Of a stretch of DNA of 28,559 bases, positions 2,659-28,221 are shown piece after piece. Every line of letters begins with the position of its first letter. The first letter of the stretch is position 1. The stretch comes from a virus: IMG/VR virus record IMGVR_UViG_3300025424_000031, positions 1 through 28,559 of that record, one strand, 5' to 3'. The notes under the pieces are model-generated. The model did no database searches. It had not been told where the DNA came from and was given only the letters and a program-made list of their open reading frames with translations. The position numbers were made by a program, and so were the translations under genes.

Positions 2659-3252
2659 TCAAACAGTTTTGTCAAGGTCTTCCAAAATCAATTGTGCATG
2701 TATTACCACCACTTGCGCATATGATACACCATGACTCTTTTTTAGATAATACCCGTCTTCCGAAGGAACCCAAATTTCCGCTGAAATAGCAGAAAATCCC
2801 GAATGTTTACAACGTTCTATTAAATGTTTTTTGCCAGGACGAATCAAAGCTAGGAACATGGCTAATTCAATTATGGAACTGGGTTTTAAGACTTTTATTA
2901 AATCCGAGTGATTACTGATGTGAAATAGCTGCTGGCAAAATTCCGGATACTGTAATAGTTCCCAATCAAATGGTCGAGACATCAAATCCAATAAATGTGC
3001 TTCATCTCGTACTCGATCATAGACGTGCAGGTTAAGCAAATCTATTTTATAACAGTGTCGATCTTCTGCAGATTTATAGTCAATGCTGGCCAAGCCCGTT
3101 ATGGGATCAACTGGCATTTTATGAAAATAAACACCTGTATTATGACGAATGATTTCACCATCTCGAAATATGCTGGCAGGGGTATGATCAACACCAACTA
3201 AAGCCAGTGATCTATCTGGGAAATCAATATCAATATCACCACGTCCGGACAT
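2659..3252 (-). CDS. Miniature C-family (DnaE-like) DNA polymerase core protein
   Basis: Only 197 residues long, yet it carries the landmarks of the bacterial DNA polymerase III alpha palm and fingers in the correct order. These are GDIDIDF (residues 5-11, compare PDFDVDF with the first two catalytic aspartates), YKIDLLNL (68-75, compare VKFDFLGL with the third aspartate), CQQLFHISN, LKPSSIIELAMFLALIRPG (122-140, compare the ALxRPG finger motif) and KKSHGVSYA (171-179, compare NKSHSAAYA). There is no PHP, beta-binding or OB domain; full DnaE is over 1,100 residues. The catalytic Asp positions are retained, so it may bind DNA or nucleotide, but processive polymerisation seems unlikely. It overlaps the upstream gene by one base (TAATG). 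T4-like phages normally replicate with a family B polymerase. Confidence 0.75.
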   Translation of the reverse strand: MSGRGDIDIDFPDRSLALVGVDHTPASIFRDGEIIRHNTGVYFHKMPVDPITGLASIDYKSAEDRHCYKIDLLNLHVYDRVRDEAHLLDLMSRPFDWELLQYPEFCQQLFHISNHSDLIKVLKPSSIIELAMFLALIRPGKKHLIERCKHSGFSAISAEIWVPSEDGYYLKKSHGVSYAQVVVIHAQLILEDLDKTV

Positions 3253-3509
3253 TAGGGCAGCTTTCTAGAAATTTGTCGAACCTGTTGTTCCAAATTGCTG
3301 ATCCTAGTTGCTTGATCACGAGTTTTTTGTTGTAGTGTACTGACCGTAGATTCCAATGATCGAATCTTAGCAAGAAAATAAGTTGTTTGATTTTCTTCTT
3401 TGGTAGTGTTTTTTGGAATAACGGCAGTGCCGGTAACAGGAACAGCTTCCTGTGGTTTATCAGCGTCATACATGGTTGACATTTCTTCATCAGTCAATTT
3501 ATGGTTCAT
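3252..3509 (-). CDS. Small coiled-coil protein
   Basis: Starting at the ATG that overlaps the stop of the upstream zinc-finger gene (ATGA), the protein has 85 residues. It has a disordered N-terminal part (residues 1-40) and a C-terminal coiled coil of heptad type (about 43-80, LAKIRSLESTVSTLQQ...ISNLEQQVRQI). A longer frame exists upstream, but it lies inside the neighbouring gene. The stop overlaps the start of the DnaE-like gene by one base, so all three are translationally coupled. It may be an oligomerising partner of a neighbour; no family is recognised. Confidence 0.65.
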   Translation of the reverse strand: MNHKLTDEEMSTMYDADKPQEAVPVTGTAVIPKNTTKEENQTTYFLAKIRSLESTVSTLQQKTRDQATRISNLEQQVRQISRKLP

Positions 3510-4183
3510 AGTCCAGCCTCGGCTAGGGTTTCTTTTAGGAATTTTGTACCCGCAGTGTTTCGGGAAAATTTTATTTTCCAAACAGCAATTGGTGCTAAAT
3601 CTTTTATCAAAGTAATTTGCTCAGCTGAACATCTTTCAAAAAATTCTTCAGCTGATGGGGCATTGTACAATACCCAGGGACTCAAACGACCACGCTTCAA
3701 CCATTGTATAACAGACCCTGCTCCAACTTTTCGGAAAAAGTCTGTCCAAGTTTCACCACTTTCTTGACTCCACTTCTGCATCAATTCAATATTACGCTCT
3801 AATGCAGCTTCCGGTTCTTCTTTTTTAATCAACTCAGCGACATATTGATTGTATATTTTTTCGTTTGTCCATTCTGTCATTGGAATATTACCTTTGATCA
3901 CAAAGTCGATAAATTTGTTGACATCAATAGGATCAGTTTGGACCAAATATTTTCCAAATTTATAAAACCCAGTATAATACCTGCTGTCTATAAATTCTCG
4001 ATAATCAGTTCTTGAAACTCTGGAATTCGGCATGCTGAGTTCATAAAACCGACTCCAAGCAATAAATGCCAGTCGACTAACTGGATCTTCTTTGGCAAAC
4101 CATCGCCGTTTAATTTCACAGCTATGATTAATTAAAACGTCTTCACGATTAAAAGACCTTTTGCAAAATTCACATTTATGCAT
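3506..4183 (-). CDS. Zinc-finger protein of the replication group, unknown role
   Basis: This 225-residue protein opens with a single classical-type zinc knuckle: C4-x2-C7, then H20 and C22 (CEFCKRSFNREDVLINHSC). The remaining 200 residues are charged, mainly helical and rich in aromatic residues, with no nuclease motif I can identify. The finger plus the basic stretch after it (EIKRRWF) suggests nucleic-acid binding. It overlaps the gene before it by 8 bp and the coiled-coil gene after it by 4 bp. A replication accessory or transcription factor is a reasonable guess only. Confidence 0.65.
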   Translation of the reverse strand: MHKCEFCKRSFNREDVLINHSCEIKRRWFAKEDPVSRLAFIAWSRFYELSMPNSRVSRTDYREFIDSRYYTGFYKFGKYLVQTDPIDVNKFIDFVIKGNIPMTEWTNEKIYNQYVAELIKKEEPEAALERNIELMQKWSQESGETWTDFFRKVGAGSVIQWLKRGRLSPWVLYNAPSAEEFFERCSAEQITLIKDLAPIAVWKIKFSRNTAGTKFLKETLAEAGL

Positions 4184-4670
4184 CTAATTTCTTTAAATCC
4201 TCTAAAATCTTTTTTGTATCTGCTTTGCTTTCACCATGTGCTCGACACAGTGTTTCTAAAGCATCGGTTGTTAAATCAGTTTTTAGTATGTTGAGCTCTG
4301 TAATATTTACATCCGGATATATTTTTGAAAAAAACTCATCCAAATTAGGAGTATTCGTTGTTTTCTTTTTTGATATCCAGGGTCGATGTTGTTTTACTCC
4401 TGTTCCAACCACACACATGAGTTGATGTTGCAATTCTGGATGATTCGATAATTCCCAAAAACCCACATTCACAATGTCATTTGTTAAAATAACAGATAGG
4501 TCAGCCTGCGAGTTTTGACTTGGAAGACTGCTCATATATCGCATAAGAACAAGAGCTGCATATCCCTTCTTCTCTTCTTCAGTCAAATTCTGATAATAGG
4601 TTTTATTACCACGATCAATTGATTCCAGTGTTTTGAATAGATCCAATTTGTATTTTTTGTCTTCTGCCAT
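4176..4670 (-). CDS. Possible clamp-loader small subunit (gp62-like)
   Basis: This 164-residue helical protein has an N-terminal block, LFKTLESIDRGN...YQNLTEEEKKGYAALVLMRYMSSLPSQ, a middle block with FWELSNHPELQHQLMCVVGTG and an HRPWI element, and a C-terminal Lys-rich helix. This pattern resembles proteins I associate with gp62-type clamp-loader small subunits in non-enteric T4-like phages; gp62 itself is about 187 aa in T4. Similarity to T4 gp62 is too low to judge by eye. It is the first gene of its transcript, with AGGTGA before the ATG. Gene 44, the usual partner, is not in the window. Confidence 0.4.
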   Translation of the reverse strand: MAEDKKYKLDLFKTLESIDRGNKTYYQNLTEEEKKGYAALVLMRYMSSLPSQNSQADLSVILTNDIVNVGFWELSNHPELQHQLMCVVGTGVKQHRPWISKKKTTNTPNLDEFFSKIYPDVNITELNILKTDLTTDALETLCRAHGESKADTKKILEDLKKLDA

Positions 4671-7349: not shown

Positions 7350-8807
7350 CTAAATCAAATAATTTATTTTTTCTGTTGTATAGGGATATTTTGCTGAATC
7401 ATAGTGCTTCTTGCGAGCAGTCAAATGACGTTTACTGAACTTGCATGTACTAGTAATATCGTAAATCATGGCATGATCCTTGTCATTTGCCATTCGAAGT
7501 CCACGCCCAATACTTTGTATCACTCGAATAAAACTTTTTCCGGGCTCAACCATTACTAGATTGAATATTCGCGGAATGTCAAGTCCAACCGCCGCAACTC
7601 CAAAAGTAGCGATAACAACTTGATCATCGGCTACTCTAATAGAGTCATAGGCTTCTGATCTTTTTGCAGTCTTTACACTACCACTAACAAATACACTATT
7701 GGGAATTAACTCAGCTAATCGCTTGCCAGTTTCAATTCTGTCTACTAGAACCACGGTATTACCAGAATCTTTGATTAACATTATTCTATCAGCTAACCAT
7801 TTGAGTCTAGCTTCATTTGTAGTTAGGAATTTTAGTTCATCAGGGTATTTTCCAAATACTTGTGTTTCACGTGTTTGAAGGATATTGACATGACAATTTG
7901 CCAAAACACCTTGCGCCTGCAATTCATGAGCAGGTAGTTCCCCAACGACTGGACCCAGTGCAGCTAAAAGGCTGAATTTATCTTGTTCTAATTCAGGCAG
8001 TGTACCAGTCAATCCCCATCTCAGTGGTATTTTAGCGAAATTCTGTGTTAGTAGTTTAAACAACACTTCAGCTTTGCTCATATGTACTTCATCACATATT
8101 ACACACACTAGGTCTTTCATGAAAACTACTAGTTGACCATCATCCAAACAGTCCTTGGATTTTTTATCTAAAACGCTCAAACTCTGCCAAGTACAGATGG
8201 TATGTGTGCGATCATATTCTTTTCGATCACCATACAATACACCCACATCCAGTCCCAGATTGATATAGTCTTTTTCAGTCTGTTCAACCAGGTTGATATT
8301 GGGCACAATCACAATGGATCTGCCCCAGGGTTCAACAATAGAACTCAAAGTTGCTGTTACTAGAGTTTTTCCGGCTCCAGTAGCTGCAACATATATGGAT
8401 TGGGGACCTTCAACAAAATGATTAATTATTTCGACTTGATAATCACGAAGTACAATTGGTTGACCTTCAAATCTGTGACCGGCTGGCCAAGTTTTGCCTG
8501 CATGATAGTTTTCATCAATAGTCTTTAATGAAAAATCGAACGCTGGTCTTTGATCTTCTAATTCAATTTCATAACCAGCTGTTTGAATAATGGGCAAGAT
8601 GCGATCAAGTAGATTCAAATATGTTCTTCCACCAATAGTCATAAAGCTTTTGGTTCCATCCCATCGTCCCAATTTAAATGCTGCTGAATATCGAGCACCA
8701 GGAATGAAATATTTTAAGGCATTGACACATTGACGGCGTTCAGCCAATTCCAGCCCTTTAACTGAAATGTTGACTTCATCTTCAATAATAATTTTTGCTA
8801 TTTTCAT
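7350..8807 (-). CDS. uvsW: UvsW-like superfamily 2 DNA helicase
   Basis: At 485 residues, it is close to T4 UvsW (503). After an N-terminal domain of about 115 residues, SF2 motifs appear in order: the Q-like RDYQ (121-124), Walker A ATGAGKT (142-148), motif II DEVH (239-242), motif III LTGT (266-269), and motif VI QSIGRGLRM (431-439). UvsW unwinds branched DNA and R-loops, catalyses fork regression and branch migration, and helps switch from origin-dependent to recombination-dependent replication. The start overlaps the UvsY-like stop (ATGA), so translation is coupled. Confidence 0.9.
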   Translation of the reverse strand: MKIAKIIIEDEVNISVKGLELAERRQCVNALKYFIPGARYSAAFKLGRWDGTKSFMTIGGRTYLNLLDRILPIIQTAGYEIELEDQRPAFDFSLKTIDENYHAGKTWPAGHRFEGQPIVLRDYQVEIINHFVEGPQSIYVAATGAGKTLVTATLSSIVEPWGRSIVIVPNINLVEQTEKDYINLGLDVGVLYGDRKEYDRTHTICTWQSLSVLDKKSKDCLDDGQLVVFMKDLVCVICDEVHMSKAEVLFKLLTQNFAKIPLRWGLTGTLPELEQDKFSLLAALGPVVGELPAHELQAQGVLANCHVNILQTRETQVFGKYPDELKFLTTNEARLKWLADRIMLIKDSGNTVVLVDRIETGKRLAELIPNSVFVSGSVKTAKRSEAYDSIRVADDQVVIATFGVAAVGLDIPRIFNLVMVEPGKSFIRVIQSIGRGLRMANDKDHAMIYDITSTCKFSKRHLTARKKHYDSAKYPYTTEKINYLI

Positions 8808-10261: not shown

Positions 10262-11326
10262 CTATTCTTCAATATCAATCTGTATAGTATCAGCATGCCT
10301 GAACATACCGCCTTCAAGTGCTTGTATGTCAGCCATAATTAGATCCAAGCAGCCATTTTTGTTTTGATTCCAAGCTTTTCTGAAATATTTCAGCTTCTCT
10401 CCATTTTGAAGGGTATAAATCAGGCTGTTGCCTTCTTTGACAAGTAAACCGGCGCCGTCGACCAGATCTAGTAGACCCGAATATTCATCCAGTCCTCCTG
10501 CATAGGGAATCTTCAACTCAATTTTCTCAAATGGTTTTGAATAACGTGTCTTAGCAACTTGACACATGGAACGAATACCATGCACGTCTGTTGTTTTGTT
10601 GCCATCATCATCTTCTTTAAGCTTGCCTTTTTTAATACTCACTACAATACTAGCAGCAAAAATAGGACCAGATCCTCCGGAAATAATATCATCTGGTGCG
10701 TATTGTGATTGACTTGCATACGTATGGTTGGTAGCCAACAGCCCAATACCCAAATCACCAAACATGTTCACGCAGTTTGTAATTAGAGCTTTGAGTGCTT
10801 TGGGCTTTAATCCCATGTCACCACGTAGTGAACCAGCATTGAATTGATCTTGTTGAGTTGGAACCATCAACATGCCCAAACTATCAATTACGAAAAGTAC
10901 TTCGGGACGATCTGCTTCAGAAAGTCCGCGATATTCTTTGACGAATTCACTGATCATCTTAGCAACATCGTCAATCATAGCCATGTTAAACTTCAACAAT
11001 TTACTTTCGGAAGTATCTACATTGAAAGCTTTTAGCCAATCTTCATCTAGAGCATTTTCACTATCTACTAGAATTACATATATTCCTTGATCTTGTGCAT
11101 TTTTAATAATATTGGCGCTTAGGAGGCTTTTGCCACTTCCTGACTCCCCGGCCAAAATTGTGGTCTTGCCTAATGGCACTCCACGATTGAAGTTACCACT
11201 GATTACATAGTTTAGTGCATAATTACCTGTTGATATCCAAGTCTTGGGATCATGAAATCCCACACTGATACCATCTATACTTTTAGTTATATTTTTCCTG
11301 AATTTCGATACGTCGAACGGCTTCAC
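10262..11326 (-). CDS. uvsX: UvsX recombinase (RecA/RAD51 family)
   Basis: This 354-residue protein (T4 UvsX is about 390) has Walker A GESGSGKS (60-67), acidic ENALDEDW (90-97), Walker B VLFVIDSLG (143-151), the DNA-binding loop region around QQDQFNAGSLRGDMGLKPKALKAL, and the LLATNHTY segment. The C-terminal domain is shorter than in T4. It catalyses homologous pairing and strand exchange for recombination-dependent replication and repair. The start is GTG with GGAG 8 nt upstream. It lies 70 bp after gene 32, separated by a hairpin terminator that should reduce but not abolish readthrough from the gene 32 promoter. Confidence 0.95.
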   Translation of the reverse strand: MKPFDVSKFRKNITKSIDGISVGFHDPKTWISTGNYALNYVISGNFNRGVPLGKTTILAGESGSGKSLLSANIIKNAQDQGIYVILVDSENALDEDWLKAFNVDTSESKLLKFNMAMIDDVAKMISEFVKEYRGLSEADRPEVLFVIDSLGMLMVPTQQDQFNAGSLRGDMGLKPKALKALITNCVNMFGDLGIGLLATNHTYASQSQYAPDDIISGGSGPIFAASIVVSIKKGKLKEDDDGNKTTDVHGIRSMCQVAKTRYSKPFEKIELKIPYAGGLDEYSGLLDLVDGAGLLVKEGNSLIYTLQNGEKLKYFRKAWNQNKNGCLDLIMADIQALEGGMFRHADTIQIDIEE

Positions 11327-11396: not shown

Positions 11397-12419
11397 TTAT
11401 CGAGAAGCTTGTTGGCGGCTTCGAATTACAGCCAGTATTTGTTCTGGCGTTTTCTTTTCACTAGTAGAACTCGGAGTTGGTTCAGGAGTAGTATCTACTT
11501 CTTCTTCAACAATTGGTGTTGCTTTCATTCGGCTCAATATTGAGCTTGCAGAAGGAACAGTAGTTTCTGTTTTAGCTGTTTGATTAGCTTGGCCAGTTGG
11601 TTGATCACTGGTTTCAGCTTTAAATCCACGTGGCTTATAGTATTGGCTCCAACGATCTGGATCATACATTTCACCATCAACACTGGCTTCAAACAATTCC
11701 ATGATAGCTGTTTTATGAGCTTCATCTGGTTTTTGTGGCAACCAAGAATTTAGAGTATAAAGACCATGTGTTTCAATTACCTGTAGTTCATCAGCTGAAA
11801 GTGGACGTTCTTTCATATGCCATGAACTGGAAGTATAGTTGGGCCACTTGCCTTTGATGGTTTTGGAAATATCAAAATCACGACCATTTTCATAGTCGGT
11901 TGGTGAATTTTCCAGATCAGGGCGTAGCAAAATTCCTTTAATAATATCAAACAATTCTTGATTGATATCAAAACGTCGAATAGGATTTTCAGGTGTGGTG
12001 TCATCTGGGTTGGGATTCTTTGTAACAAATCCCTGTAGTAGAAAAGATTTCTTCCGGTAATATGTGCGAGCCATGTCTTCCAGTGAAGAATCTTTCCACC
12101 ATGGAGCAATTGCGGCTGTAATACCACATGACCTGTCTTCCCACATGTTGGTGCAAGGAACCACCACATCTGTTCTTTTGGAATCACGTTCACCTTTGAT
12201 TCCTGCAAAGGGAAGTCGAATTGTTAGTTTTTCTCTCCAGAAGAAATCATTAGTTGGATCTTCATCTGGTAGGAAACGTGTTGTTGCTAATGAATTTTCG
12301 GGGTTGTTCCAAAATGCATAAGTTAAATTGTTGTTTTGGAAGTTGCCTGTTTTACCTTTTTCTCGTTTTGCTTCTTGTTCTAATAATTTTGCTTGAATTT
12401 CTTTTAAAGTTTTTGCCAT
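11397..12419 (-). CDS. 32: gp32-like single-stranded DNA-binding protein
   Basis: This 340-residue protein has a gp32 layout. It has an N-terminal basic helix (about 1-25, for cooperative self-binding), a core OB-type DNA-binding domain (30-250, with FWNNP, TRFLPDEDPTNDFFWREKLTIRLPF and the RPLSADELQ block), and a flexible Pro/Thr/Ser/Glu-rich tail. T4 gp32 binds zinc with one His and three Cys. Here only C89 and C98 are visible in the corresponding CTNMWEDRSCGI stretch, so the zinc site is altered or lost. The last residues are basic instead of acidic. The transcript has its own late-type box and a structured leader. Confidence 0.9.
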   Translation of the reverse strand: MAKTLKEIQAKLLEQEAKREKGKTGNFQNNNLTYAFWNNPENSLATTRFLPDEDPTNDFFWREKLTIRLPFAGIKGERDSKRTDVVVPCTNMWEDRSCGITAAIAPWWKDSSLEDMARTYYRKKSFLLQGFVTKNPNPDDTTPENPIRRFDINQELFDIIKGILLRPDLENSPTDYENGRDFDISKTIKGKWPNYTSSSWHMKERPLSADELQVIETHGLYTLNSWLPQKPDEAHKTAIMELFEASVDGEMYDPDRWSQYYKPRGFKAETSDQPTGQANQTAKTETTVPSASSILSRMKATPIVEEEVDTTPEPTPSSTSEKKTPEQILAVIRSRQQASR

Positions 12420-16944: not shown

Positions 16945-17838
16945 TTATCCAGCGATCAATTTCATTTCCATAGTCGGGTTCTTCACATATTTCAACGCTT
17001 CAGGATTTTGGCAAATAGCTTGATACTGTACTTCACGTCGGGCTCTGGACTTGAAATGCCGTAATAGTAGACCATCCTTTTTGACTGCCGCTAATTGATA
17101 TTCATATTTGGGAGGTTTGCCCAAATCCAAAACAACACTTGGTTGAAGATCAATTGCTAGATACACTAGTTCATCATTGGGCTTGTTGATACATTTTATT
17201 GCACTGGGTGTTGTTCTTATCGCCGTTTCCAGTAGTTCTGGGAAAATCAGTTCATCCGGAATATAATTGATTGCTCGACCAGATACTTCAACAGCTCGCA
17301 TCAAAAGATCTCGAGTTACGAATTTGGATTTGGATATAAGATATATGGTAGAATAACTTTCATCAATTAGTTCTTCCAAAAGTGAAGTGGGTGGATTTGG
17401 CATTTCTAGAACATAGTCTGTCATTGCACTATACCATTTTTTGATACCTAATGACATGACCTCTGGGCTGACGTCTGTAAAGAATTCAAAGATTCCTCTA
17501 CCTTTAGCAGAATCGATTGCCGTCTTTTGAAATTCGGGATCAGCTGAATATTCGTGAAACAATTCCATCAAATTGGCGTCGAAACTTAGAGCTAGTAATT
17601 TGACTTCTCGACTATTAGTATGGCCAGCAATATGTTCTTCCCAAAATTCTCTTAGGGGACTTGCATACCGTGAGTTATACCACGTGTTACTTTTGTGTTT
17701 TTTGTGTTTTTCATAGTAACAATTAATAGCCATCCTTTGTAGAGTTTCAGACTGTGGTTCAAGAAATCGAATCAAACTGGGATCTGATTCCAACATCTCC
17801 TCAATCTTGTCTAATGAAAGAGCAATTTTTTCACTCAT
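16945..17838 (-). CDS. Second helical-repeat protein (DUF4116-like), between rnlA-like gene and terminase
   Basis: This 297-residue, mainly helical protein has a C-terminal half that repeats the pattern of the 542-aa protein: KPPKYEYQLAAVKKDGLLLRHF, EVQYQAICQNPEALKYVKNPTMEMKLIAG and earlier FVTRDLLMRAVEVSGRAINYIP. The N-terminal half has more divergent repeats. It is a paralogue with older, degenerate units. The start overlaps the stop of the Rnl1-like ligase (ATGA), so the two are co-translated. It ends 22 bp before the terminase. No catalytic motif is visible; a protein-interaction scaffold is the simplest guess. Confidence 0.65.
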   Translation of the reverse strand: MSEKIALSLDKIEEMLESDPSLIRFLEPQSETLQRMAINCYYEKHKKHKSNTWYNSRYASPLREFWEEHIAGHTNSREVKLLALSFDANLMELFHEYSADPEFQKTAIDSAKGRGIFEFFTDVSPEVMSLGIKKWYSAMTDYVLEMPNPPTSLLEELIDESYSTIYLISKSKFVTRDLLMRAVEVSGRAINYIPDELIFPELLETAIRTTPSAIKCINKPNDELVYLAIDLQPSVVLDLGKPPKYEYQLAAVKKDGLLLRHFKSRARREVQYQAICQNPEALKYVKNPTMEMKLIAG

Positions 17839-19028
17839 GCATCACCATCCCAAGAATAATTCCATGTCACAGCATTGTTCCACAAGCTTCTTGCCTTGTC
17901 AACCTTGGTCTGAGTAGACAAACTCTTCACAATACGATCAATAACTTGTTCTCGAATCGACTTGCCATCTGCGGCTGCAAATATAATACCAGCCGCCCAT
18001 GAATCAGTCAAACCAGGAACAACATCAACCGCGAATCTCTTGCGTTCTGAACCACATTGTTCAACGAACACAGTATCAAACATGTTTTGATAGCGTTCAA
18101 CAGTTTCAGAAACCCCCTGCCAAAAACCAGTTTCATAAATTTCCAGACGCTGACGTTCTTCATCCGGCAACATGGATTTGATATCATCGGTTGCTGAATT
18201 TAGAATCAAATCAATCACGTTCTTTTCCTGTGACAGGCTATCTCGTGCCTTGTGAATACGCACATAATCAGCCGCCTTGATCTTTGCCATATGGCCAGTA
18301 TCAAAACGAAGCACCCAACCTTCTTGACCGATAATTGGGCGAGTGGTTTCAACAAGCTCATGAATATCGTCAACTGATCCTGGTCGTTCTTTAACAACAT
18401 CAAGATCCCAATTGACAAATTCATCAAGTGGAAGATATTCACCCGTTACATTGTTTCGAACGGCAAGCAGTACCAGGCGATCAACCGGGTAATCAATTAC
18501 AATTCGTTGCTTTCGGCTACAAAACTCAAAAACTGGAGTACAGTGATTTTGAATCATAAGTTCACAGAATTCCCGATAGTTCTTTCGCGTTTTAACCCAT
18601 TCTTGAGCCATCTGAGCAATATCCGTATCACCCATCTTTGTGGCCATTGTCCATTCGCCGTTGGGCAAGGCCAGTGGTCGCACAAAAGAACCATCCAGCT
18701 TTTCCAAAATTTTGTGTGGCTGACCAAGATCAATCAAATGTGGTTGGCAATCATCACTTTCACCAACATTCTTGAATTTATGAAGAGGACGGCTGATAAT
18801 GCGCCGTTCATTGTTGAACAGAATTCCTCGACATTCGCGCCGAATTGCCCAATTGCGGGCTGTCATTGAATCTGGTGCAGAATTAGGATCAGGAAATGTA
18901 TCAGCGAAGTTAACCATATAATTTACAACGTGTCCCCAATCACGACGAGCCACGATAAATTCATCTCGGCCTTCAATCGCAGGAAGCACATCTGACAAAA
19001 ATTCAATACGCGGAAAATCATAAAACAT
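17835..19028 (-). CDS. rnlA: RNA ligase, T4 Rnl1 type
   Basis: This 397-residue protein (T4 Rnl1 is 374) has the nucleotidyltransferase motifs. They are ECRGILF upstream element (65-71), motif I EKLDGS with adenylated lysine K110, motif IIIa FEFCSRKQRIV (167-177), motif IV EGWVL (236-240) and motif V KIKAADY (249-255), followed by a helical C-terminal domain. Rnl1 seals tRNAs cut in the anticodon loop by host defences such as PrrC. No 5' kinase/3' phosphatase (Pnkp) gene is in the window. It starts at ATG with GAGG upstream and has a TTGACA-N17-TATTGT promoter. Confidence 0.9.
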   Translation of the reverse strand: MFYDFPRIEFLSDVLPAIEGRDEFIVARRDWGHVVNYMVNFADTFPDPNSAPDSMTARNWAIRRECRGILFNNERRIISRPLHKFKNVGESDDCQPHLIDLGQPHKILEKLDGSFVRPLALPNGEWTMATKMGDTDIAQMAQEWVKTRKNYREFCELMIQNHCTPVFEFCSRKQRIVIDYPVDRLVLLAVRNNVTGEYLPLDEFVNWDLDVVKERPGSVDDIHELVETTRPIIGQEGWVLRFDTGHMAKIKAADYVRIHKARDSLSQEKNVIDLILNSATDDIKSMLPDEERQRLEIYETGFWQGVSETVERYQNMFDTVFVEQCGSERKRFAVDVVPGLTDSWAAGIIFAAADGKSIREQVIDRIVKSLSTQTKVDKARSLWNNAVTWNYSWDGDA

Positions 19029-20397: not shown

Positions 20398-20886
20398 TCA
20401 CATACTCCCATAAATCATCTTTCGTTCTAATTCTAACTCAGGATTGAAATATTCCCAACGTACCATCCTAAGGTAATTGGTCTGATAAACCAAATCTACT
20501 TCACCAGTTGAAAATATTTCTATATATTCTGCGCGTGATCTGCCAATCTGAAATGAACACCACAAACGATCAGATTCAAATGTATCTTCATATAAGCACG
20601 ACAATCTTTTATTTCCACGCTCATCAACCAATATGATAAGATCATGTTTAAAAACAATACTGTTAATGATCACATTAATGGCATAGGGAATATTTATTTT
20701 CCAATTTTTAAAAGCAATTTCACGAAAAGCCATAAATACCAAAATTGTGGGAAACGCAAATAAGGAAACCGCCGTAATAGCAATTTGCCAAAAAATTCCT
20801 AATCCAATCTGATTCAACCAAACTTCTTCAAACGCTAACATAAGGGCAACAATTACGATGCATACCACTTCTAAAACGCAAATCAT
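20398..20886 (-). CDS. Membrane protein, first of a tandem family
   Basis: This 162-residue protein has two hydrophobic spans (about 2-20 and 29-54), then WKINIPYAINVIINSIVFKHDLIILVDERGNKRLSCLYED and the C-terminal signature VRWEYFNPELELERKMIYGSM. The middle aligns with WRINIFQFIPTVFNGFILQNVVVILYDFENKKRLSNIY of the next gene, so the similarity covers the whole protein. The start overlaps the stop of the second RNA ligase gene (ATGA), tying it to that transcript. The function is unknown. Confidence 0.6.
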   Translation of the reverse strand: MICVLEVVCIVIVALMLAFEEVWLNQIGLGIFWQIAITAVSLFAFPTILVFMAFREIAFKNWKINIPYAINVIINSIVFKHDLIILVDERGNKRLSCLYEDTFESDRLWCSFQIGRSRAEYIEIFSTGEVDLVYQTNYLRMVRWEYFNPELELERKMIYGSM

Positions 20887-22088
20887 TGAAGTTCAGTTCC
20901 GCCCTTTCGGGTAAGGTACACGGGGCTAACCATTTTTAGAATTGGACGCAGAGTGTGCTTTTCATCTGCCATTCGCGGAGATTGATCGCCAGTTGAAGTG
21001 ATGACAATACCTTCTCGAATGTTGCCGCCGCCCACAAGTGTCACACCATCGCGAAGTTGTGTTAGAATTTCAAGATCCCAGGGACCTCGGTAAAGAACTG
21101 GAGGGCGTTCAATTCCCATGGCAGCAAAGTTAGCAATTTTACGATCTGTGTCCATATAGGACACGTTGCCGTTGAAAAGCACAGCCATGTCAAATGCTCG
21201 GAAGGTAGGCTTTTGTGCACCATAATGTAGGTCTTGAACTCCTCGACCAAACACTTCTCCCAGGATATGAACTGGTGCACCAGCAAAGGTTCGATCACAA
21301 TGCGCAATCATTCTTTCAATAAATCCACTTTCCAACACTGTTCGAACATAGAGGTTAGATTGAATATTTTCCTCTACGTTCTTGAATACTAGGCCCTTGG
21401 CGCCCAGACCTTTGCTAGAAATCACAACATCACCATTCGCGAATGCTTCAGGATTATTCAGGCCAGGGATATAACTGATACGAACGTGAGAACCATGAAT
21501 TTTTTCCAGCACTTCCACTTCATCATTTGCCAGGAATTCGGGGTAGTTTTGCCAATTTTCGATGTCATATGAAAATTGTGCTTTATGACAAGCAAACAGT
21601 TGTCCAGACATTGATGACGGGATGGGTTCTTCGTATTTTTGAATACCAAAGAATTCAGCCACGTTGGAATAGAGCTCTACCGGAATTTCAGAATAGCTGT
21701 TTGTTCCCAGCGCGGCGATCCGCATGGGTTTCTTAACTGAATAGAATTCCTCTTCCTGTTCATTCACATGTTTTTCAACTTTCCAAACCAGCCCCTGTGA
21801 CACAACATTTCTTAAACGAATTGCTCGAACACGATTTCCTTGACTTCCAGCCAGCATGCCCTGCCCATTTTCATTGCAGTAGCCTCGATCCTTGAGAACA
21901 TCCAGCGGGATAACTGCATTTTCTGGAACATAAACAACCAGTTCACCGGCAGCAAATCGATGATTGCCCATTTCGTCCTTGGCAGTGATTGCTTCGTATC
22001 CGCGAATTCGACAGATTGAAAGACGATCAGCGCCCGGATGATCATAAACTGAATCAATTGGGAGTACCAGTACTTCAAACATGCTCAT
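20883..22088 (-). CDS. RNA ligase, DRB0094 (Rnl5-like) family
   Basis: This 401-residue ligase has an N-terminal OB-type module (1-120, FEVLVLPIDSVYDHPGADRLSICRIRGYEAI...GELVVYVPENAVIP) characteristic of the Deinococcus DRB0094 RNA ligase family. The nucleotidyltransferase domain follows: motif I EKIHGS with K196, motif III GEVFG (277-281), motif IV REGIVI (358-363), motif V LKMVS (384-388). The Deinococcus enzyme seals nicked RNA with a 3'-OH/5'-phosphate, often in duplex or hybrid context. This is the second, unrelated-family RNA ligase here. The start has AAGGA upstream. It lies between small membrane-protein genes. Confidence 0.85.
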   Translation of the reverse strand: MSMFEVLVLPIDSVYDHPGADRLSICRIRGYEAITAKDEMGNHRFAAGELVVYVPENAVIPLDVLKDRGYCNENGQGMLAGSQGNRVRAIRLRNVVSQGLVWKVEKHVNEQEEEFYSVKKPMRIAALGTNSYSEIPVELYSNVAEFFGIQKYEEPIPSSMSGQLFACHKAQFSYDIENWQNYPEFLANDEVEVLEKIHGSHVRISYIPGLNNPEAFANGDVVISSKGLGAKGLVFKNVEENIQSNLYVRTVLESGFIERMIAHCDRTFAGAPVHILGEVFGRGVQDLHYGAQKPTFRAFDMAVLFNGNVSYMDTDRKIANFAAMGIERPPVLYRGPWDLEILTQLRDGVTLVGGGNIREGIVITSTGDQSPRMADEKHTLRPILKMVSPVYLTRKGGTELQ

Positions 22089-25227: not shown

Positions 25228-26544
25228 TCAATCAAAATCTGCTAATAGGTCAATATAGGCATATGCTCCAAATGGTGGAACAATACGAGATCCATGCCCG
25301 CCTGCGATAATCCAAAGTGTGTCACAGTAGTCAGAAGGTCCCCAGCCATAATTTGGATATCCATCTGTGAACCAAATTGCTTTCTTTGGCAAGATTTCAT
25401 TTTGTTGCCAATATTCCCAGACGGCTTCAAAACTAGTTCCACCGCCACCTCGGCATTCATAACCTAAAAACTCTTGTTTGTTTTCATGTGTGAATTCTTG
25501 GTAGTTGTGAATATTGGTATCGAAGCACAAAACACCAATTTTAAACTGAGAATAGACTTCCATGATTTCCCAGACTTCAGTCAAAAATTTCCTAGCCACT
25601 TTATCACTGATTGATGCACTCATGTCAATTGCAACTTGTACATCAATTGTTTCATCCACATTAAGAACTGGCATGAAAATATTAGTGCCTGTGAATCGAC
25701 GATTGGGTTTCATAAAGGTATAATCGTCTGACATACAACTGTTGATAGTTGATTGCAGTAGTTCTCGCCAATTGATTTCTGGTGTTAGAAAATTGTTGAG
25801 CAGTCGTTGCAGGCCAGCTGACATATTACCTGCTGCCGCCGACGCTGAACTAATCAGCGCTGACTTGATGTGTTCGCGAATTTCTTCTAGATCAGTATCA
25901 TTAATTTTGGGCATACTTTGTCCGCCCGGATTTTCCCCATCTTCGGGATCACCAGATCCTGCCATGGGAATATGAACATCCAGAGTCAGCTGTTTCTTGA
26001 CCTTTCGTTTCATCAAGTCATCATAAACAGCTTCACTGGTCCATAGATTGGGTTCACAATATCGCTTGTCATAGAGTCCAACACGCTGTTGTCCTTTGGT
26101 CGCAGAAGTTTTATCAACCACAATTTCTGTGGGCATTTTGCCAATGCCTTCTTGTTCCAGAAATCCGTTAACAATAAAATCAGTTGCCATGTTCCAATAG
26201 TCTGGATCACGTAGTGAACGACGTCCAAAATGTTCAAATGCACAATGGAGCAGCTCATGACAAAATACAAACATGAGTTCTGATGGTGCACCAGACTGTT
26301 CAACAGCTAGTCCCAAAACAAAGTCAGCGTTGTAGTAGATCTTTCGACCATCCACTGCCATCGTAGGACACCACCCTGCGTCGGTAGCATCTACTAGACC
26401 AAAATGCATTGCCAGATTCCCCAAGAAGGGATGTTTCATAAGCAGGCTGATTCTGGCCTTAGTAATTTGTCGCCGTGCCAGTTCTGATTTCTGACTTTTT
26501 TCAGCAGGTGTCAATTCTTTTGTTTTTGTTGCTGCTTTTGCCAT
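25228..26544 (-). CDS. HExxH plus VWA-like protein, partner of the MoxR ATPase
   Basis: The 438 residues have two recognisable parts. The N-terminal putative metallopeptidase domain has FCHELLHCAFEH (HELLH at 96-100) and a following WNMATDFIVN helix. The C-terminal VWA-like domain has a MIDAS-type DMSAS (307-311), a GGGGTSFE loop (about 370-380) and FTDGYPN. This fits the DUF2201-type metallopeptidase/VWA architecture. Such proteins usually pair with MoxR AAA ATPases that remodel protein or metal complexes. The MoxR gene lies directly upstream with a one-base overlap, confirming the pairing. The target is unknown. Confidence 0.8.
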   Translation of the reverse strand: MAKAATKTKELTPAEKSQKSELARRQITKARISLLMKHPFLGNLAMHFGLVDATDAGWCPTMAVDGRKIYYNADFVLGLAVEQSGAPSELMFVFCHELLHCAFEHFGRRSLRDPDYWNMATDFIVNGFLEQEGIGKMPTEIVVDKTSATKGQQRVGLYDKRYCEPNLWTSEAVYDDLMKRKVKKQLTLDVHIPMAGSGDPEDGENPGGQSMPKINDTDLEEIREHIKSALISSASAAAGNMSAGLQRLLNNFLTPEINWRELLQSTINSCMSDDYTFMKPNRRFTGTNIFMPVLNVDETIDVQVAIDMSASISDKVARKFLTEVWEIMEVYSQFKIGVLCFDTNIHNYQEFTHENKQEFLGYECRGGGGTSFEAVWEYWQQNEILPKKAIWFTDGYPNYGWGPSDYCDTLWIIAGGHGSRIVPPFGAYAYIDLLADFD

Positions 26545-27734
26545 TAGACGATCAATTCTGCAAATTCTTTGGTGTATTCTTTCCAGATGGGCAAGTCACG
26601 ACCACGGTATTGTGTTGGTTGGTGTGGGTGTCCCAAAATGCCTTTGCATCCCATGACAGCCAGCTCACGTTCGAAATTCTTTAGAATGAATGTCAAATAT
26701 GTGTTGGCCATTTCCTTCAGTTTTTTAACCGAATCTGGATTGGGATTGGTAGCAACCTTCTTATCCAGTTCAATAAGTCGATAAATGCAGCTTGTGATCA
26801 AGCTATAGACAATACCAATATCTTTGATATAAAGTTCAGTTAGTTTGCCTGTCAAGATTTCATCTGGATTGGGAAGTTTGGCAGCTTGTTCACGATATTT
26901 CATGAACTTCAAACCACGGCTTGCTCCCACAGTACCATTTACCAGTGAAGTCAGTGTTGATTCAGTGTTCCAGACCTTTTCGTGAATATTGCCCGCATCA
27001 TCTACTGTCTGCAGGAACTTGCTGACAAATTCCCAGGAACGTGGTGTAGCAAATGCTTCAGAATCCATGTTTTCACCAAACGAATTTAGATCGTTGGGTT
27101 GGAAGCAAATATAACCCACAACATCTCGATGGATTCGGTTTTGCATAGCCCACATCTTCCAGTCTTCAAAAGTCGTTTGAAGTGTAACATGGGTAAACCT
27201 GTTCCTGAGAGGAGTTGGCATCTTGTAGCTAACACCCTGGTCTTTTAGTCGATTACCTGCTGCAATAATTGCACATTGTTCTGGCAATTGGTAATTACCA
27301 ATACGTCGGTTTAGAATCATTTGGTAAGTCGCTGCCTGCACGCTGGGAGGAGCAGCTGAAATCTCATCATAAAACACCAGTGCTCGACTAGCTTGATCAA
27401 CTGGTAGGTCACTGGGATTACTCCAGCGGAATTCTTTTTCAACTAATGGTACTCCTGTATCATCACGAACCAACTTACCAGTCTCATCATATACTTTGAC
27501 TTCTGCTAGATAGGGAATGCCTCGGACATCTGTAATATCCAACAGTGGCAATCGAATATCAATAAGTGGTCGATTTTGTTTTTTTGCTGCTTGTGCAACG
27601 ATATCAGACTTACCAACACCTGGTCCAGCCCAAATCATAAGCGGACGTTTCATATCGATACAAACATCGATCATTTCAGCAAGTGCTGCTGGTCCTACTG
27701 AATCACTGATATCAATCGTATTACCTTTAGACAT
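26544..27734 (-). CDS. MoxR-type AAA+ ATPase
   Basis: I start at the ATG with AAGG upstream, giving 396 residues; a longer TTG-initiated frame lies within the neighbouring gene. It has Walker A GPGVGKS (37-43), Walker B LVFYDEI (119-125), sensor-1 region CAIIAAGN and an arginine-rich segment TPLRNRFTH. The helical C-terminus is characteristic of MoxR. MoxR ATPases act as chaperones for VWA-domain partners, here encoded by the next gene (TAATG overlap). A TAGACA-N16-TATAAT promoter lies about 30 bp upstream. The role in the phage cycle is unknown. Confidence 0.85.
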   Translation of the reverse strand: MSKGNTIDISDSVGPAALAEMIDVCIDMKRPLMIWAGPGVGKSDIVAQAAKKQNRPLIDIRLPLLDITDVRGIPYLAEVKVYDETGKLVRDDTGVPLVEKEFRWSNPSDLPVDQASRALVFYDEISAAPPSVQAATYQMILNRRIGNYQLPEQCAIIAAGNRLKDQGVSYKMPTPLRNRFTHVTLQTTFEDWKMWAMQNRIHRDVVGYICFQPNDLNSFGENMDSEAFATPRSWEFVSKFLQTVDDAGNIHEKVWNTESTLTSLVNGTVGASRGLKFMKYREQAAKLPNPDEILTGKLTELYIKDIGIVYSLITSCIYRLIELDKKVATNPNPDSVKKLKEMANTYLTFILKNFERELAVMGCKGILGHPHQPTQYRGRDLPIWKEYTKEFAELIV

Positions 27735-27765
27735 TCCAATACCTTTTTTCTTGGGTTGTATGCCT

Positions 27766-27793
27766 ATTATATGGCAACTTTTTTGTTTGTCTA
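27766..27793 (-). promoter_or_regulatory. Sigma70-like promoter of the moxR-VWA operon
   Basis: The minus strand has TAGACA (27793-27788), 16 nt and a perfect TATAAT (27771-27766). The -10 ends 31 bp before the ATG at 27734, inside a non-coding gap of 70 bp. Confidence 0.65.
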
Positions 27794-27804
27794 CCGAGTA
27801 TGAA

Positions 27805-28221
27805 TCAAAAAGTACAAAAAGCTCGAACATTTCCACTGGATAATTGGAATTCAAAAGCTGCTTCTGGATTCCAAAGAAACATAGTACCTGATTTAAAAAA
27901 CCAGGGTCCTGCTATATAACGATTCAAACCAATTATGACTTTGGGTGTCATTTCAGCTTGAAATTCTCGATGGGTTTTGGTTTGAAGTTCAACGGTAATA
28001 GGTGGCCAATGTGGAGACAATAATTCAAAACCGAATTTGGTTAACTGCCAACTTCGATTCACCCAAACCAGATCTGCCAATTCTTTAATTCGTTTTGCGT
28101 GTTCATCGGGGCCCTGGACAGTTAACTCCTGCAAAATAGGATTCAAGTCATTGATTATTTCAGTGACTTCTTGTCTAGATATTGCTTGTGGAAAACGATC
28201 ACTCACCTTCTTTGATTTCAA
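27805..28221 (-). CDS. Hypothetical protein (138 aa)
   Basis: I do not recognise this protein. The C-terminal half, PPITVELQTKTHREFQAEMTPKVIIGLNRYIAGPWFFKSGTMFLWNPEAAFEFQLSSG, looks like an antiparallel beta domain; the N-terminal half is helical. The start is uncertain: TTG at 28221 (GGAG directly before) or GTG at 28206, both overlapping the upstream gene. It is co-transcribed with that gene. Confidence 0.5.
   Translation of the reverse strand: MKSKKVSDRFPQAISRQEVTEIINDLNPILQELTVQGPDEHAKRIKELADLVWVNRSWQLTKFGFELLSPHWPPITVELQTKTHREFQAEMTPKVIIGLNRYIAGPWFFKSGTMFLWNPEAAFEFQLSSGNVRAFCTF

Follow-up and report, generated by a model that had tools for sequence, protein, structure and literature searches.

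A split and minimal alpha subunit of DNA polymerase III (Pol III) was described from sequence in T4-like 'group 2.2' jumbo phages (Iyer et al., 2021, PMC7824862), and within the open-licence literature neither experiments on the split Pol III nor further reports of the split were found. Two earlier phage genome papers list genes which belong to the same split system, namely a truncated 'DNA polymerase III alpha' of phage CBB (CBB_328; PMC5259590) and a predicted DNA polymerase III alpha of phage Atu_ph07 (gp316; PMC6102473). Judged by its position gp316 is the N-terminal half (N-half), and CBB_328 (172 aa) is an N-half as well by its size and by the Pol III alpha label on the N-half match of CBB. 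In the passages concerned neither paper mentions the C-terminal half (C-half). Full-length phage DnaE proteins (PHROG 405), found in Mycobacterium, Gordonia and Pbunavirus phages, have the family-C palm core in common with the C-half but consist of one chain, which is about 1000-1290 aa long in those copies that were read. For Rossellomorea phage phiT1 the annotation divides DnaE into two ORFs, which flank a small one (L189:601-3883).

The gene described here is located on the minus strand at positions 2659..3252 of a stretch of viral DNA of 28,559 nucleotides (in the following: the window) and is a diverged further member of the known split Pol III. As in the system of Iyer et al., it encodes a DnaE-derived C-half for metal and template binding, the NTP-binding half is encoded at a distant position in relatives, and the hosts of the system are phages with a family B polymerase (PolB) and a MoxR-vWA pair (PMC7824862). 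Nothing essential differs; the present copy is diverged and is not adjoined by gp61 and gp41. The prior description is extended in that the break point is located exactly, the profile and fold matches are quantified, and the co-occurrence of the halves and the selection on the gene are measured; added to this are the DnaE residues kept and lost, above all the absent YQEQ/R709 segment and the exchange of R390 for Glu.

The ORF is intact, comprises 197 codons and encodes a protein of 197 aa assigned to PHROG 11778. Its start agrees with those of the relatives, which lie at, or a few residues ahead of, the same DIDIDF. This motif (residues 6-11, 3220..3237) corresponds to D401 and D403, the metal-binding residues of E. 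coli DnaE, and also to D405. It is followed by HNTG (residues 37-40, 3133..3144), the equivalent of H511-AGG in the palm right after the deleted thumb, and by KID (residues 69-71, 3040..3048), which corresponds to K553-F-D555 with the third catalytic Asp. The fingers are represented by RP (residues 138-139, 2836..2841; R639-P640 in E. coli) and by YYLKKSHGVSY (residues 168-178, 2719..2751; YGFNKSHSAAY 754-764 in E. coli); all motifs are encoded on the minus strand. In their longer forms the motifs are KIDLL (69-73), IRPGK (137-141) and KKSHG (171-175). Altogether the C-half spans E. coli DnaE residues of about 397-781, minus the thumb and one finger segment. The initial annotation had recognized a 197-residue protein with the landmarks of the DnaE core, which the intact ORF and the profile match confirm, and it was right about the small size and the missing PHP, thumb and OB domains.

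Searches with the single C-half sequence yielded the finger domain alone in Pfam (E 0.11, sub-threshold) and no match in the PDB with phmmer; they were too weak, so that profile methods were needed. As a full DnaE query found just two loci in IMG/VR, phage DnaE genes were added to the reference alignment. In a profile-profile comparison of 55 C-half family members with ten DnaE proteins a significant match was obtained (E 4.2e-11, probability 97.2, score 88.4), in which residues 36-188 of the C-half are paired with residues 510-774 of E. coli DnaE. Sixty column-shuffled controls scored 24.1 at most and the reversed alignment 19.8. The AlphaFold2 model of the C-half (mean pLDDT 93.3, pTM 0.82) superposes on the palm and fingers of family-C polymerases; VIA-align placed 192 of its 197 residues on Taq alpha (Z 9.8, rmsd 3.6) and aligned it to E. 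coli alpha 397-781 with a Z of 9.3. The first twelve rows of the fold search were all family-C enzymes (DnaE or PolC), whereas the next row had a Z of 3.2, and unrelated structures did not exceed this value. Both the HMM-HMM match and the palm, whose absence had been named beforehand as evidence against a polymerase origin, were thus found. The profile, fold and selection tests confirm that the C-half descends from DnaE.

The C-half belongs to a well-populated phage family. PHROG 11778 ('DNA polymerase') matches residues 4-191 with an E of 3e-58, and tblastn detected 93 relatives in IMG/VR and matches in 63 phage records, with none in the plasmid records searched. Carriers include Rak2-like phages as well as Atu_ph07, PA5oct, XacN1 and Phosso. 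Identities range from 38 to 94% among the 80 kept of the 93 IMG/VR relatives, with the nearest one at 94% and the next closest, among those kept, at 58%. No exchange of D6, D8, D10, K69 or D71 occurs in an alignment of 50 relatives, from which the copy at L052:1996-2580 was omitted; the KxD motif is lost there and reads TLALL, which represents either a sequencing error or an inactive copy. The C-half gene is under strong purifying selection, with a dN/dS of 0.048 against the closest relative and of 0.06-0.14 in other pairs.

Like bacterial DnaE and PolC, with which it shares homologous palm and finger parts, the C-half family conserves the catalytic Asp triad (D401, D403, D555), K553, H511, R639-P640 and H760. 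In the window protein the equivalents of E. coli D401, D403, D405, H511, G514, E547, G550 and K553 are kept, as are those of D555, L557, R639, P640, Y754, F756, H760 and Y764, so that the earlier observation of retained catalytic Asp positions is supported by the invariant D6, D8 and D71. Unlike in the bacterial enzymes, the palm is distributed over two genes, and much of the surrounding protein is gone. The GxGRGS triphosphate loop is absent, since the chain begins at PDIDIDF, and the PHP domain is missing. The thumb (433-510 in E. coli alpha) is absent, and D8 and D71 are separated by 63 residues in the C-half vs 152 in E. coli. The finger segment of about 656-750 with Y686-QEQ, R709 and K714-K715, which is conserved in full-length DnaE, has no counterpart. 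A separate gene for this segment was considered and rejected, because a finger profile run on whole genomes matched the C-half alone. The C-half stops at about E. coli residue 781, and therewith the OB fold and the clamp- and tau-binding C-terminus are absent; a conserved motif of the Q-L-F type was not found in the C-half. Substitutions relative to E. coli DnaE are R390 to Glu (in the N-half), Q610 to His and N757 to Lys.

When the large relatives were searched with PF07733, all six of the large PolB-matching records turned out to contain a further small ORF (E 1e-8 to 2e-12). This N-half (169-177 aa, PHROG 11127) carries the GxGRGS loop with the equivalents of R362-G363-S364, and the GRGS loop is invariant across its divergent aligned sequences. 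Its profile matches E. coli DnaE 318-393 (E 3.6e-12), and its model (pLDDT 87.7) aligns to residues 278-393 with a Z of 11.1. The two halves are exactly complementary: The N-half typically ends with EFLK or EFLR at the position of E. coli FERFLN393, and the C-half begins just past this end with PDIDIDF at residue 400. Halves joined from five genomes are collinear with DnaE 195-811 (E 3.3e-19), and the join falls between FERFLN and PDFDVDF in the fused alignment. The genes of the two halves are about 34 kb apart in RaK2, 44 kb in PAC2 and more than 180 kb in Atu_ph07 and Phosso. Both halves co-occur in 58 of 60 C-half phage records among the matches listed, many of which are near-duplicates, and in six of seven IMG/VR contigs of more than 200 kb. 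The N-half was found neither in the window nor in the 139.6-kb contig of the closest relative, both of which are incomplete fragments. Next to the N-half gene a small conserved ORF (VDME...NARGD..G.GG.I...RE) is present in all six genomes read (L096:5777-6238, L097:4928-5338, L098:5436-5795, L099:5369-5710, L100:5718-6020, L101:4910-5242). The N-half also matches PHROG 7513 (461 aa) and PHROG 13169 (463 aa) near their C-terminal ends, which suggests that other phage DnaE proteins end soon after the GRGS part.

In the relatives the C-half gene is part of a syntenic cluster in the order uvsW, PHROG 11279, PHROG 11758, PHROG 11058, C-half, a small antisense gene, gp61 primase and gp41 helicase. 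The gp61 gene is found downstream of the C-half in 61 loci and gp41 in 53, and uvsW lies upstream in 62. The window retains the upstream part of the cluster, with a C2H2-like zinc-finger protein (PHROG 11058, 3506..4183; upstream neighbor in 82 of 85 loci), a PHROG 11758 protein (4176..4670; 72 of 85 loci) and a UvsW-type helicase (7350..8807). The zinc-finger protein is a possible functional partner of the C-half. Further genes on this minus strand encode a UvsX/RecA-type recombinase (10262..11326) and a gp32-like single-strand binding protein (11397..12419), the latter with a weak Pfam match below the cut-off (E 7e-4). Downstream of the C-half the window contains a collagen-like fibre gene and not gp61 and gp41. 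The small antisense gene after the C-half (e.g., L083:8590-8946) is present in 81 of 85 loci and missing in the window and in L001. Markers of group 2.2 jumbo phages in the window are UvsW, the weakly matching gp32-like protein and the pair of a DUF2201 metallopeptidase/vWA protein (25228-26544) and an AAA (MoxR-type) ATPase (26544-27854). Pfam additionally identified a T4 RNA ligase 1 homolog (17835-19028), and in another ORF (20883-22088) a ligase-like KIHGS motif was noticed by eye.

The initial annotation had assigned the window to a phage type with a family B polymerase. This holds for the relatives, as the polymerase was detected in all ten large relative genomes, but it is absent from the 28.6-kb window, which is a genome fragment. 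In Atu_ph07 and PAC2 the family B polymerase is spread across two reading frames (NC_042013.1, about 212.3-213.7 kb; PP408249.1, about 202.9-206.7 kb). A PHP domain (PF02811) was found in none of the ten large relatives. A DnaQ/epsilon exonuclease was rejected as a constant partner, with RNase_T above the cut-off in only three of ten genomes.

We lean slightly towards the interpretation that the protein is the C-half of a split minimal family-C polymerase, which is predicted to act with the N-half as an accessory nucleotidyl transferase. The metal- and DNA-binding C-half would bind the separately encoded N-half in trans, and a physical assembly of this kind is, by inference from the complementary sequences, quite probable. 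The bound halves would rebuild one polymerase-beta-type palm with three catalytic Asp residues and a finger stub. That the pair is catalytically active is predicted with somewhat less assurance; the invariant metal ligands argue for catalysis over mere binding. By a two-metal mechanism the pair would transfer nucleotidyl groups to the 3' ends of DNA as an accessory to the family B replicase; the synthesis would be short and distributive, e.g., to extend and hand off primers, to fill gaps or to repair DNA, and it may take place near the gp41/gp61 fork machinery. For such a role as DNA polymerase beside PolB the chances appear evenly balanced. The loss of the thumb and the finger segment and the exchange of R390 for Glu could abolish templated synthesis, and because of the lost conserved finger segment and thumb a role other than that of a polymerase is conceivable. 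The fact that gp61 and gp41 are not next door in the window phage also counts against an accessory polymerase, as does the failure to find the N-half in the window and in the 139.6-kb fragment of its closest relative. The tiny nucleotidyltransferase proposed in the initial annotation would accordingly be acceptable only as one of two subunits; it is not self-contained, since the N-terminal palm half with the GRGS loop is supplied by a distant gene in the relatives.

A non-catalytic descendant, in which the two proteins serve as a scaffold that binds DNA or nucleotides and regulates the PolB replisome, e.g., by primer-template sensing or polymerase exchange, is the alternative we take most seriously, although we consider it rather unlikely. 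The loss of the thumb, of most of the fingers and of the YQEQ/R709 segment would fit such a scaffold, as would the presence of PolB in every large genome tested, but the metal-binding Asp residues, the K553 equivalent and the GRGS loop are invariant in about 50-60 divergent sequences, which should be beyond the need of a scaffold. Nothing was found that specifically supports the DNA-end sensor suggested earlier. A nucleotidyltransferase acting on another substrate, by untemplated tailing, on RNA 3' ends or by protein nucleotidylation, appears improbable. Little is kept beyond the polymerase-beta-type core, there is neither a template-gripping thumb nor a full set of fingers, and with an RNA ligase in the window phage the processing of nucleic acid ends lies within its biology; however, the synteny is with uvsW, gp61 and gp41, i.e., with replication and recombination and not with RNA-repair genes, and the finger residues R639-P640, Y754, F756 and H760 are retained. 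The initial annotation had also suggested a decoy, and the C-half, which resembles the core of the host alpha subunit, might in this way mislead or inhibit the host clamp, its loader or Pol III. This is very unlikely, as the alignment is restricted to palm and fingers, the parts of alpha that bind the clamp and tau are missing, no Q-L-F type motif is conserved, and the conserved positions are the catalytic ones. For a decaying fragment or a chance resemblance only the small size can be cited, and the probability is negligible in view of the profile, fold and selection tests, the more than 150 relatives and the co-conserved partner; the earlier argument against simple decay was borne out by the same evidence, from the profile match, the fold and the dN/dS to the relatives and the N-half.

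The core of the split minimal polymerase is cut in one fixed loop, lacks most accessory domains and is strongly selected beside an unrelated replicase. As a tentative proposal, which we hold to be possible and no better than that, the tiny halves would reassemble into an enzyme that is active although the thumb and the finger helix which usually binds the dNTP are absent. They would represent a new class of two-subunit nucleotidyltransferases with a task other than bulk replication, which would be left to PolB. The exact boundaries and residue losses make the prediction testable with two proteins of less than 200 residues. Such a split core would show with how little of a family-C polymerase some function can be carried out, and it may be informative about the evolution of Pol III.
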